Source of the DNA: Robiginitalea aurantiaca
GTDB taxonomy: Bacteria; Bacteroidota; Bacteroidia; Flavobacteriales; Flavobacteriaceae
DNA length: 64,000 nucleotides
Direction of reading: 5' to 3'
Assembly (NCBI RefSeq): GCF_030380815.1
Contig: NZ_JAUDUY010000002.1
Location: forward strand, 62,001-126,000
Part shown: positions 57,153 through 62,165 of the stretch, one piece after another
How positions within the stretch are numbered: the stretch's first letter is position 1
Layout of the letters: the number at the start of each line of letters is the position of its first letter
Program-made: the position numbers and the translations under genes
Notes under the pieces: model-generated
The model's input: only the letters and a program-made list of their open reading frames with translations
Database searches by the model: none
What the model was told of the DNA's origin: nothing

Positions 57153-57908
57153 TCACTCCAACCAAAGCTTAAAGTCCTTTACGCGTTCCCTGCTCACGAT
57201 GATTTCCTGCTCACTGAACCGGTTCATCTTTACTTTCAGGCGCGAATTTGAGTAGGAAATGATATCTGCGATGTGATTTATTTGCACATAAAACTTCCTG
57301 CTTACCCGGAAAAAAGTCTCGGGTGAAAGTTCTGCTTCCAGTTGTTCCAGCGTCGTGTCGAGCAGGTAGGAACGCCCCTCGGTTGTCGCGGCATACGTCC
57401 CTTTGTTTTCGCTGTAAAAACACTCCACCTCATCGGTGGGAATGATTTTTATATGCTGCCCCACCCTTGCGGTAAATCTACTTTTGTATTCCCGTTCCAG
57501 GGGATTAACCAGGAGTTTTCGGATATCTTCAAAATCGACGCGTACCTCAGACCTTCCTGAACCGAGGTTTTTGTATTTGGTAATTGCAGCCTGGAGTTCC
57601 TCCTCGTCGATGGGTTTTAGCAGATAATCAATGCTATTGAGTTTAAAAGCCTGAAGGGCGTATTCATCATAAGCGGTCGTAAAGACGATCGGGCTGCGGA
57701 CGGTCACCTGGTCGAAGATCTCGAAAGAGAGTCCATCCGATAATTGAATATCGAGGAAAATAAGGTCCGGGTGCGGCTCGGTCTCGAACCACGCAATAGA
57801 TTCGGCAACGGAATGAAGCATTTGTGAAACTTCAATATTCATAGACTCCAAAAGCCGCGAAAGTCTCCTGGCGGATGGTTTTTCGTCCTCGATAATCAGT
57901 GCTTTCAT
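57153..57908 (-). CDS. LytTR-type response regulator
   Basis: 251 residues: receiver domain 1-120 (acidic IIEDE, phospho-acceptor Asp53 in FLDIQL, Lys in DYLLKPI) and LytTR DNA-binding domain from about 145 (SRFTARVGQHIKIIPTDEVE; FFRVSRKFYVQINHIADI). Partner of the histidine kinase at the other end of the operon. Its start overlaps the stop of the preceding 2TM protein gene by 4 bases, showing tight coupling. Target promoters unknown. Confidence 0.92.
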   Translation of the reverse strand: MKALIIEDEKPSARRLSRLLESMNIEVSQMLHSVAESIAWFETEPHPDLIFLDIQLSDGLSFEIFDQVTVRSPIVFTTAYDEYALQAFKLNSIDYLLKPIDEEELQAAITKYKNLGSGRSEVRVDFEDIRKLLVNPLEREYKSRFTARVGQHIKIIPTDEVECFYSENKGTYAATTEGRSYLLDTTLEQLEAELSPETFFRVSRKFYVQINHIADIISYSNSRLKVKMNRFSEQEIIVSRERVKDFKLWLE

Positions 57909-58267
57909 CCTTGTGTCGTATTTGATTTTGTGCCCGATTCGGATGGCTTCTCAAATCGTTTTGATTCCTCCCTGTCTTCATCCATATACTTCTGAATCAT
58001 GCGGTCTTCCCATGATTTACCGAAAAACGGATTCAGTCTGAATGTGATCATGGCGTGAATCAACAGTCCAATACCCCAAAATATGGCCGTTGTGAAGTTA
58101 TAATAGTGCAGACTAAAGTCTTCCTTACGCGACTGTGAAATCACCATGACAGCAATGATGAAAATATTGATGACGATATAAACCATCAGGTGAATATAGA
58201 ACCCTTTGAGCTCTTCGACACGCTTTTTGGCGCGTTTGCGTTTTTCAATAATGGTGTGATCTTCCAT
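57905..58267 (-). CDS. 2TM domain protein C
   Basis: 120 residues: KRAKKRVEELKGFYIHLMVY, helix, connecting loop, helix, then the domain end LNPFFGKSWEDRMIQKYMDE and a charged tail. The start at 58267 gives the same short lead before RAKKRV as in the two paralogues; a start at 58300 would overlap the previous gene by 10 bases. Most diverged of the three free 2TM proteins. Its stop overlaps the response regulator gene. Confidence 0.78.
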   Translation of the reverse strand: MEDHTIIEKRKRAKKRVEELKGFYIHLMVYIVINIFIIAVMVISQSRKEDFSLHYYNFTTAIFWGIGLLIHAMITFRLNPFFGKSWEDRMIQKYMDEDREESKRFEKPSESGTKSNTTQG

Positions 58268-58290
58268 TTCAGTAGACTGTTTATAAGGTT

Positions 58291-58590
58291 CTATTCCCAT
58301 CGGGATTTACTCTTGTCGTCTTGTTCCATGAATTCCTGGATTTTCCGGTCTTCCCAGTCCCTTGAGAAAAACGGATTCCAGCCAAAAGTCCTGAAGGCGT
58401 GGAAAAACAAACCTATTCCCCAGCCGAATGCCGCCCAGAGGAACCACATGTAGCGCCATTCATTGGTCAGGTAGTTAATCACTGCCAGAAGGGAGATCAC
58501 AAAGATGTAAGAGGTCAGGTTGCCATAAAACTTCTTGAGTTCATTTACCCGCTCTTTGGCCCTTAAATATTTTGATTCCCGATTTTCCAT
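58291..58590 (-). CDS. 2TM domain protein B
   Basis: 99 residues: KYLRAKERVNELKKFYGNL, two membrane helices, then GWNPFFSRDWEDRKIQEFME. The start at 58590 is chosen over 58650, which would run back into protein A. The domain closely parallels the kinase C-terminus. Role unknown; it sits between kinase and regulator genes. Confidence 0.78.
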   Translation of the reverse strand: MENRESKYLRAKERVNELKKFYGNLTSYIFVISLLAVINYLTNEWRYMWFLWAAFGWGIGLFFHAFRTFGWNPFFSRDWEDRKIQEFMEQDDKSKSRWE

Positions 58591-58618
58591 AATCTGTTTG
58601 TTTATCTGTGTGTTTGAT

Positions 58619-58921
58619 TTATTTAAAGGTGGATCCCTTTTGTTCGGCATCCATCAGCTCTTCTATCTTACGGGCCTCCCAGTGTTTTCCCAAAAATGGG
58701 TTATATCCATAGGCTTCCATTCCCTGCATCAGAAGCCCAAAGCCCCATCCTATTGCGGGAAAGAAGGCCCAGGGAATACTGAAGCCAATTGTTGTCCAGT
58801 TGATCCAGAACAAAAATGGAATTACAATACAATAGGCCAACAGGGATCCGTAAAAATCCTTAATCGCCTTAACGCGTTCTTTGGCCCGCAGGTAGCTGTC
58901 GTATTTATCTTGTGTATTCAT
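58619..58921 (-). CDS. 2TM domain protein A
   Basis: 100 residues: YLRAKERVKAIKDFYGSLLA, two membrane helices around FFPAIGWGFGLLMQGMEAYG, then YNPFLGKHWEARKIEELMD. It is the closest relative of the 2TM domain at the end of the kinase encoded just upstream, and the DNA of the two stretches is also visibly alike, indicating duplication within the operon. Confidence 0.8.
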   Translation of the reverse strand: MNTQDKYDSYLRAKERVKAIKDFYGSLLAYCIVIPFLFWINWTTIGFSIPWAFFPAIGWGFGLLMQGMEAYGYNPFLGKHWEARKIEELMDAEQKGSTFK

Positions 58922-59024
58922 GAGGTCTGTGTTTTAGTTACCCCAAAAATGCCGCATCCGTCAGGGTTTTCAAAAAAGAGGATTCCGAGTCGTTGGATTC
59001 CCTGACTGAATTGTCATAAAAGGC

Positions 59025-60362
59025 TTAAAATTCGTCTTTTTCCATGAGTTCCCGAATCTTGCGTTCCTCCCACCGCTTGCCCCAAAGCGGGTTGTAACCG
59101 TAGGCTTCCATGCCGTGCATCAATACCCCAAAACCCCATCCCATGGCTGGAAATATCACCCATGGAAAGTCGTAACTGGTGGTTTGCCAGTTCAGCCAGG
59201 CCAAAAAGGGTATCACAACCAGATAAGCCCCTAAATTCCCATAAAAACTTTTAATTGCTTCCACTTTTTCCCTGGCCTTTACGTAGCGTTTGTCTTCAAT
59301 ATACTCTTCTTGTGACGAGTATTTGGATACCTTTCGGCTGAGCATGGGTACCGCTACGCGAAACTGATTCCCGTCTTTTTCGATTTTCAATTGACGTTCC
59401 GAAAGGAGGGAATATCGCTGGAGGATGTTCTGTAGACCCACCCCACTCGATTTAGAAATTACCTGTTTTTCCTGTAAATTGTTGGTTACCACTACGTAAC
59501 CGTCTTCCTCAGTCACTTTTATATATAAGGGACGATCTGGGGTAACCACATTGTGCTTGACCGCATTTTCAAGCAATAATTGGAGCGAAAGCGGAACAAT
59601 TTTAGCGTTTGGATCGGCACTGTGCTCCGGAATTTCAAAATGAATCCCCTCCTCAAAACGCATTTTCAGTAAACGCACGTAGGTACGGGCAAAGGCGAAT
59701 TCTTCATCCACGGGCACGAGTTCCTTATTCTTTTGTTCAAGTACATAGCGGTACACCTTTGAGAGGGCAGTTGTAAAGCGCTGGGCCTGATGAGGGTCTT
59801 CTTCGATCAAGCTCGTAAGCACATTCAGGCTGTTAAACAGGAAATGCGGATCCAATTGATTTTTAAGGGCATCGAATTGAGCAGAAGCCGTACCGGCAAT
59901 GATTTTCTGTTGTTTTACCTTATGCTCCTGTCGGTGCTTGTAATAAAATACTGCGTAAAAAACTCCGGCAATAAAAGCGGCGAGGATTGAGGTACCGAGG
60001 TAATAGTCTATGGATTCTCCCATTAGAAATCCCGACAGGTCATTTCCTCTTAGGCCAACACTTATGATGCTTCGGGCAAAAAAGATAGCAATCATGGAAA
60101 CCCCGATATTTCCAAGAATACTCAAGATCAGGTTCCTGCCCCTGAATAAATCAAGCCCGTAACGCTTTAACAAATAGGAAATCAGGATGTAATTGGCCAG
60201 ATAAATCAGCCATGAAAATATCATGTGATCCAGGAGATTCGACCAAAAGGTCCTGTTGATCACAAGGCTTTGCCCATTGAAGAAGTATATCGCCTGAAAT
60301 ACGATAAATAATAGTACGCCGATTAGCGTTGCATTAATAAAGTGCCTGAATATGGATTTCAT
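59025..60362 (-). CDS. LytS-like histidine kinase with fused C-terminal 2TM domain
   Basis: 445 residues. N-terminal four membrane helices (to about 142), a His_kinase domain with phospho-accepting His173 in LDPHFLFNSLNVL, an HATPase_c domain with the N box LLLENAVKHN (Asn266) and G box GVGLQN (307-312), then an added domain at 358-441: KREK-type helix, two membrane helices and GYNPLWGKRWEERKIRELM, which is a full 2TM domain. So the catalytic part is tethered to the membrane at both ends. First gene of an operon with three free 2TM proteins and the LytTR regulator. Confidence 0.9.
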   Translation of the reverse strand: MKSIFRHFINATLIGVLLFIVFQAIYFFNGQSLVINRTFWSNLLDHMIFSWLIYLANYILISYLLKRYGLDLFRGRNLILSILGNIGVSMIAIFFARSIISVGLRGNDLSGFLMGESIDYYLGTSILAAFIAGVFYAVFYYKHRQEHKVKQQKIIAGTASAQFDALKNQLDPHFLFNSLNVLTSLIEEDPHQAQRFTTALSKVYRYVLEQKNKELVPVDEEFAFARTYVRLLKMRFEEGIHFEIPEHSADPNAKIVPLSLQLLLENAVKHNVVTPDRPLYIKVTEEDGYVVVTNNLQEKQVISKSSGVGLQNILQRYSLLSERQLKIEKDGNQFRVAVPMLSRKVSKYSSQEEYIEDKRYVKAREKVEAIKSFYGNLGAYLVVIPFLAWLNWQTTSYDFPWVIFPAMGWGFGVLMHGMEAYGYNPLWGKRWEERKIRELMEKDEF

Positions 60363-60550
60363 GGGAAAAAACTTCTCGCCTTTAATTTAGTAAAAAACGC
60401 TTCAGGTGCTATGCCCAAAAAAGAGCTTCCTGATACGCGTGTGTTGAATTTACAAATCTAGATGACTACATAACGCAACCTTAAAATAATGTCCTGAAAT
60501 GGTAGAATTCCGTTCCGAATTGTACTTTTAGCAGGTCGATCCCACACCCT

Positions 60551-61577: not shown

Positions 61578-61745
61578 CCTTTCCTATAGCTTCCTGAAGG
61601 CGGAGTATAGGTGCGCCCTCCGATTCTGGATTATCCTTCTGCACCCGCCTCAATTCGTCCCCAAATTTCTACAATTCAGAATTTCCTTATTGCCCTTGCC
61701 GGGGGTCAGGCGCATATTTGCCCTGATAACTAAAAGCACAATATC

Positions 61746-62165
61746 ATGAAATCATTATTTTATTTCCTTTTCCTGACCACCGCCCTGAGCTGGGCACAGG
61801 AGCACAAATCAAAAGGGGTAACCCTGAAGATAACCCTGGAGAACGTCCTCAGCGATCAGGGCGACGTTCTGGCCGCACTACACACAGCGGAGACCTTTAT
61901 GAAGGGACGTGGGGTAGCCGATTACAAAGCCGAAGCCCAAAAGGGTGTCATGACCTTTACCTTTGACAACATTGCCCCGGGAACCTATGGGGTAATGGTG
62001 CTCCACGATCTCAACAGCAACCAGCAAATGGATTACCAGCCCAGCGGCATGCCCGATGAACCTTATGGGATGAGCGGGAACGATATGAGTATGGGGCCGC
62101 CCAGCTTTGAGGCTGTCAGTTTTATAGTCAAATCTGAAGATCAGGATATTTCCATCCGCTTCTAA
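61746..62165 (+). CDS. DUF2141 domain exported protein
   Basis: 139 residues, signal peptide MKSLFYFLFLTTALSWAQ. Immunoglobulin-like DUF2141 fold with VTFDNIAPGTYGVMVLHDLN (spelled MTFTFDNIAPG here) and a loop NQQMDYQPSGMPDEPYGMS that resembles a calcium-type Asp-rich turn. Secreted, function unknown. Followed by a terminator. Confidence 0.82.
   Translation: MKSLFYFLFLTTALSWAQEHKSKGVTLKITLENVLSDQGDVLAALHTAETFMKGRGVADYKAEAQKGVMTFTFDNIAPGTYGVMVLHDLNSNQQMDYQPSGMPDEPYGMSGNDMSMGPPSFEAVSFIVKSEDQDISIRF

Follow-up and report, generated by a model that had tools for sequence, protein, structure and literature searches.

A LytS-type kinase operon with fused and free 2TM domains and a putative envelope regulon in Robiginitalea aurantiaca and other Flavobacteriales

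Genes and proteins of the operon

In the window of the genome of the marine bacterium Robiginitalea aurantiaca studied here, that is, the whole 64-kb stretch of DNA that was analysed, the minus strand from position 60362 to 57153 carries a gene for a kinase ending in a 2TM domain, followed by three free 2TM genes and a REC-LytTR gene. The kinase (59025..60362, minus strand, 445 aa) is of the LytS type and comprises four N-terminal helices, a PF06580 domain (residues 161-238, E 4e-25, 88 bits), an ATPase region and a C-terminal PF13239 domain (residues 362-441, E 1e-26; 59040..59279, minus strand, 93.3 bits against a curated cut-off of 24.8). The original prediction of a LytS-like kinase with an extra 2TM domain behind its ATPase was thus borne out by Pfam, with the qualification that the likeness to LytS holds by PF06580 only, as no match to the LytS 5TM sensor domain was found in the kinase in the same search. 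The phospho-acceptor histidine, the N-box asparagine and one G-box glycine (His173, N266 and G309 in the numbering of the R. aurantiaca kinase) are invariant among 58 aligned kinases, and identity with the kinases of same-genus Robiginitalea contigs is 64-66%. A structure model of a relative's kinase, from the locus L034, has a four-helix N-terminus, and a fold search with it gave matches restricted to known kinase cores, with GanS at the top. The response regulator (57153..57908, minus strand, 251 aa) has both the receiver aspartate and the LytTR DNA-binding domain (REC E 6e-15, LytTR E 7e-22), and its Asp53, Thr78 and Lys98 are invariant in 13 relatives. Kinase and regulator are ordinary members of known families.

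Between them, and on the same strand as had been proposed, lie three separate 2TM proteins, each recognised by PF13239: T1 (58619..58921, minus strand, 100 aa, E 3e-28), T2 (58291..58590, minus strand, 99 aa from its likely start, E 4e-30) and T3 (57905..58267, minus strand, 120 aa from its likely start, E 2e-27). For T2 and T3 the listed open reading frames begin upstream, at 58650 and 58300, and the starts at 58590 and 58267 are more plausible than these in-frame ATGs. The genes had been described as separated by short gaps or small overlaps, which is correct for the regulator, whose ATG overlaps the T3 stop, and not for the kinase-T1 gap, which measures 103 bp and contains a regulatory site and promoter elements. 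All four PF13239 domains of the operon score 93-104 bits and cover nearly the full model. Genome-wide, four of the five PF13239 domains sit in this operon, together with one of the two PF06580 kinases and one of the four LytTR proteins.

In the alignment, the free 2TM proteins have in common rAk.rV, FY, Y, WG and WEerK, and the 2TM domain of the kinase additionally has VIPFL..N and W..FP..GWG. From the shared pattern originally read in these proteins, the conserved A of rAk.rV stands, and the NP is not a feature of the family. T1 is the free protein most similar to the kinase 2TM (56% identity in R. aurantiaca, 53-70% across the genus); gene conversion between the two was not supported, the T1 sequences of the genus forming a group apart from the kinase domains in a tree with moderate support (0.64). 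In the model of T2, a long helix (2-43) is followed by two more, one at 50-69 and one at the C-terminus, at 79-97. The 2TM hairpin gave no significant match to solved structures by sequence or fold search, and the library searched lists no function for PF13239. A histidine at the start of TM1 is common in free 2TM proteins (68%) and in other 2TM proteins (85%), the position being mostly Asn in kinases, and a histidine in TM2 is found in 69-79% across all 2TM groups; it is conceivable that these histidines act on a ligand or on protons. A second type of 2TM gene, of about 310 aa, has an N-terminal 2TM followed by dihydrofolate reductase; the DHFR match was seen in L054, and L052, L055, L058 and L060-L063 were assigned to the same type by length. 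A 129-aa 2TM protein elsewhere in the R. aurantiaca genome (C11:809577, L065) was put with the L054 type.

Conservation of the gene linkage and fused and unfused forms

PF13239 was found in 53 of the 60 Flavobacteriaceae genera sampled, but of 198 genomes searched across the phylum only 45 had it, and in the phylum-wide search the matches of kinase length (about 440-480 aa) were confined to the same family or order. Searching the gene neighbourhoods for 2TM genes beside LytS/LytTR pairs, the check that the original prediction had named, gave a near-universal linkage: in all 60 mapped loci of the Flavobacteriales the kinase-2TM gene is followed by between one and five free 2TM genes, and in 58 of them the REC-LytTR gene lies downstream; further loci from another collection gave 74/74 and 71/74, respectively. 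This linkage, together with the genome-wide PF13239 counts, rules out a clustering of 2TM genes by chance. Six loci (L033, L045, L091, L066, L067 and L035) have an extra gene among the 2TM genes or ahead of the regulator, encoding an amidohydrolase, a mannosyltransferase-like protein, a phospholipid/isoprenylcysteine methyltransferase (ICMT/PEMT-like) or DUF2306.

The neighbourhood upstream of the kinase is also recurrent. In 44 of the 60 loci the gene immediately upstream belongs to a merged cluster that includes a secreted TPR protein of about 206 aa together with DUF2141, of about 140 aa, and a 710-aa CarboxypepD_reg/TonB-plug protein is often found farther upstream; in many relatives DUF2141 lies within the operon itself. 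This upstream part is rearranged in R. aurantiaca, where the DUF2141 gene is on the opposite strand (61746-62165), and one protein query did not find a TPR homologue in this genome, which is weak evidence of absence. On the other side, convergent to the regulator, lies a LETM1-related biofilm-associated protein (NF040639; 55897-57081, plus strand), for which 27 loci have a homologue, in most cases at the corresponding position.

In the mapped loci, fusions of the 2TM domain involve the kinase and never the regulator. The fusion is doubled in L034, whose 514-aa kinase has two tandem 2TM domains, and is missing in two genomes of another family of the same class, where the module is unfused: the order in L068 is 2TM, a 343-aa kinase without 2TM, and regulator, and in L330 it is TPR, 2TM, a 360-aa kinase without 2TM, and regulator, all overlapping. 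A domain that occurs on its own in one lineage and as part of a fusion in another usually points to proteins that work together, and is no proof of contact. The fused, doubly fused and unfused forms support a working partnership of kinase and 2TM, and the original idea, that free 2TM proteins may oligomerise with the 2TM domain of the kinase and act as its sensors, inhibitors or membrane scaffold, is supported in part. On the other hand, outside the genus the kinase 2TM and the free 2TM proteins are 39% identical within a locus and 37% between loci, and since the first value barely exceeds the second, the sequences give no indication of co-evolution between them.

A direct-repeat operator and its putative target genes

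Upstream of the kinase we found a LytTR-type operator, a 9-12-9 direct repeat (60494..60523, minus strand, 2 mismatches), and the same repeat recurs in the kinase-T1 gap (58985..59014, minus strand, 1 mismatch), where it is the genome's best match to the first pattern. It is followed, before T1, by putative -33 (TTTTTTG) and -7 (CATTTTTG) promoter elements (58944..58977, minus strand), with a conserved A..TTTG in the genus alignment and a geometry like that of the family. An alignment of nine Robiginitalea loci has this arrangement, with the repeat before the kinase and in the kinase-T1 gap and then Bacteroidota-like promoter elements, and both sites reach at least 16/18 in eight of the nine. 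A plain spacer between kinase and T1 is ruled out by this conservation of the operator in 8/9 genus genomes, and these sequence elements make it likely that the free 2TM genes have an internal promoter of their own.

Over 60 family loci, there are 77 pairs of ACRRTTCRG half-sites that are 12 bp apart and score 16/18 or better, against 0-10 for every other spacer from 6 to 21 at the same score; the spacer-12 operator is present in 54 of the loci, the remaining six being without a site at the threshold used. Nearly all of these sites precede an operon gene, typically 60-90 bp from the start codon, and the refined operator, ACARTTCRK-N12-ACARTTSRG, is placed about 8 bp upstream of a TTTTTAAA box (the -33 box) and at a distance of 33 bp from the -7 box. 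Further loci gave the spacer-12 operator in 57/66 and any other spacer in 0-4/66. The operator also stands ahead of the operons of L068 and L330, with their unfused kinases, and it is absent from four paralogous LytS/LytTR pairs without 2TM (L331, L332, L334 and L335); another such pair, L333, has a single match of 16/18, which lies some 1.5 kb downstream within a reading frame. Among 41 genomes the operator tracks the kinase-2TM operon, being found in 32/33 with it versus 2/8 without it (p 4e-5). The 9-12-9 layout is that of the site at which LytTR proteins of Streptococcus mutans were experimentally found to autoactivate (PMC6193735).

In the R. aurantiaca genome, a search with the operator pattern that allowed up to two mismatches gave eleven matches, four of which are intergenic and lie before the kinase, T1, the DUF2141 gene and a gene for a 240-aa DUF2807 (Toastrack) lipoprotein; the others are inside coding frames and were taken as noise. 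The DUF2141 gene (61746..62165, plus strand), which encodes a secreted protein of 139 aa and is a likely target, has its operator at 61650..61679 (plus strand, 2 mismatches), and the DUF2807 gene is about 20 kb away and has a site with two mismatches. With no more than one mismatch allowed, 41 family genomes gave 100 matches, and the reversed pattern gave 11. The recurrent targets beyond the main operon were DUF2807 (11 genomes, a count that includes R. aurantiaca with its two-mismatch site), the TonB-plug protein (10) and DUF2141 (8), and a few smaller families were also preceded by the operator outside the main operon; these operator-preceded families partly occur inside the operon elsewhere. 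Since the pattern was derived from operon promoters, finding it repeatedly ahead of the same three families at unlinked sites adds independent support, and the system appears to control genes of cell-envelope proteins. One genome, G006 (L217, L218), has the operator before a Toastrack gene and no orthologue of the regulator (best identity 31%); another regulator may share the site there, or the regulator gene may be missing from the assembly.

Role of the free 2TM proteins and comparison with known systems

Taken together, the operon probably encodes an autoregulated envelope two-component system, with the free 2TM proteins serving the kinase as subunits or as feedback modulators. Most of this functional argument comes from three features that the original prediction did not include, namely the operator, the likely promoter inside the operon and the regulon of envelope genes. 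The kinase would be held in the inner membrane by the helices at its N-terminus together with the 2TM hairpin at its C-terminus and, on a signal that we infer to come probably from the envelope, would phosphorylate the LytTR regulator by the predicted phosphotransfer. The regulator would then bind the 9-12-9 direct repeat and activate, rather than repress, its own operon, in Robiginitalea also through the second operator and promoter directly ahead of the free 2TM and regulator genes. It would likewise activate the DUF2141 and DUF2807/Toastrack lipoprotein genes and, in relatives, those of the TonB-plug outer-membrane protein and of the secreted TPR protein. Being paralogues of the kinase's 2TM domain, the free 2TM proteins would most likely associate with it and modulate the kinase, and for the sign of this effect the simplest candidates are a feedback brake or exchangeable sensor units whose dose would go up when the system is on. 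Counted against this reading are the 39 versus 37% identity, the genome G006 with its missing regulator orthologue, the six of 60 loci without a site at the threshold used and the two mismatches in the site before the DUF2807 gene of R. aurantiaca.

The main rival takes the free 2TM proteins as outputs, that is, as small membrane-protecting proteins induced alongside other envelope proteins, the 2TM of the kinase being only an anchor or a stress-sensing copy. Other systems have membrane-protecting proteins of this kind in PspB/PspC and LiaI; in the genus the free 2TM genes have an operator and a promoter immediately upstream and would hence be induced as targets, the other targets are envelope proteins, and the free copies vary in number from 1 to 5. 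Against it speak the fusion of a 2TM to the kinase in almost every locus, double in L034, and the position of the free genes, which almost always lie between kinase and regulator, and we regard it as rather doubtful. A weaker rival is that the free 2TM proteins act as inhibitors holding the LytTR regulator at the membrane, as is thought for the membrane proteins of the LytTR regulatory systems (LRS), the kinase having only a modulating role; in the LRS, too, a LytTR operon with a 9-12-9 autoregulatory repeat encodes small membrane proteins (PMC6193735), but by this analogy one would not expect a receiver with its phospho-Asp and a kinase that are both intact, nor a 2TM domain fused only to the kinase, and this role seems unlikely. 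That the free genes are neutral tandem duplicates of the kinase 2TM with no function of their own would fit tandem paralogues of variable number and low mutual identity, but is very improbable given at least one free 2TM gene in all 134 loci, conserved sequence positions in the proteins throughout, and a mean identity of 74% for T2 across the genus.

If the free 2TM proteins are indeed subunits or modulators of the kinase, a wider reading, which we put forward tentatively and with less assurance, is that the Flavobacteriales and some relatives have an envelope-stress regulon of their own, in which the membrane part of the kinase may be assembled from exchangeable 2TM subunits, a single fused one plus one to five free ones, the composition of the sensor thereby coming under feedback from its own regulator. 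The system described here gives the 2TM domain a first functional setting and ties uncharacterised envelope families (DUF2141, DUF2807 and the TPR protein) to one regulator through a common operator. With the operator, the promoter geometry, the target list and the minimal unfused module specified, envelope regulation in the Flavobacteriaceae becomes directly testable.

Among known systems, the LytS/LytR-type two-component systems agree in the families of kinase and regulator, in the pairing of their genes and in having the catalytic residues intact; the operon described here differs from them in the C-terminal 2TM of the kinase, in the one to five free 2TM genes between kinase and regulator, and in that no LytS sensor domain was found. 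The LRS of Streptococcus mutans (HdrRM and BrsRM) likewise encode a LytTR protein with small membrane proteins, and their operator layout matches the sites found here (PMC6193735). However, their regulators stand outside two-component systems and have no kinase, and their membrane proteins are DUF3021 or DUF2154 (PMC6193735), whereas here only PF13239 scores above the cut-off, and the intact receiver and kinase rule out a pure LRS. Psp/Lia systems with Toastrack contexts also combine a two-component system with a Toastrack-type protein (here DUF2807) and small membrane proteins, and LytTR is found with Toastrack operons in Firmicutes (PMC11237479). In contrast to these, the Toastrack gene is linked here by the operator and not by the operon, and the operon and neighbour proteins scanned gave no Pfam match to PspA, PspC or LiaI/LiaF. 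In the literature searched, which lacked most subscription journals and all preprints, we found no description of 2TM/PF13239, DUF2141 or DUF2807 with LytTR or in Flavobacteria, and relative to that literature what is new here is the combination of a kinase and regulator of known families with 2TM subunits, a conserved operator and an envelope regulon.
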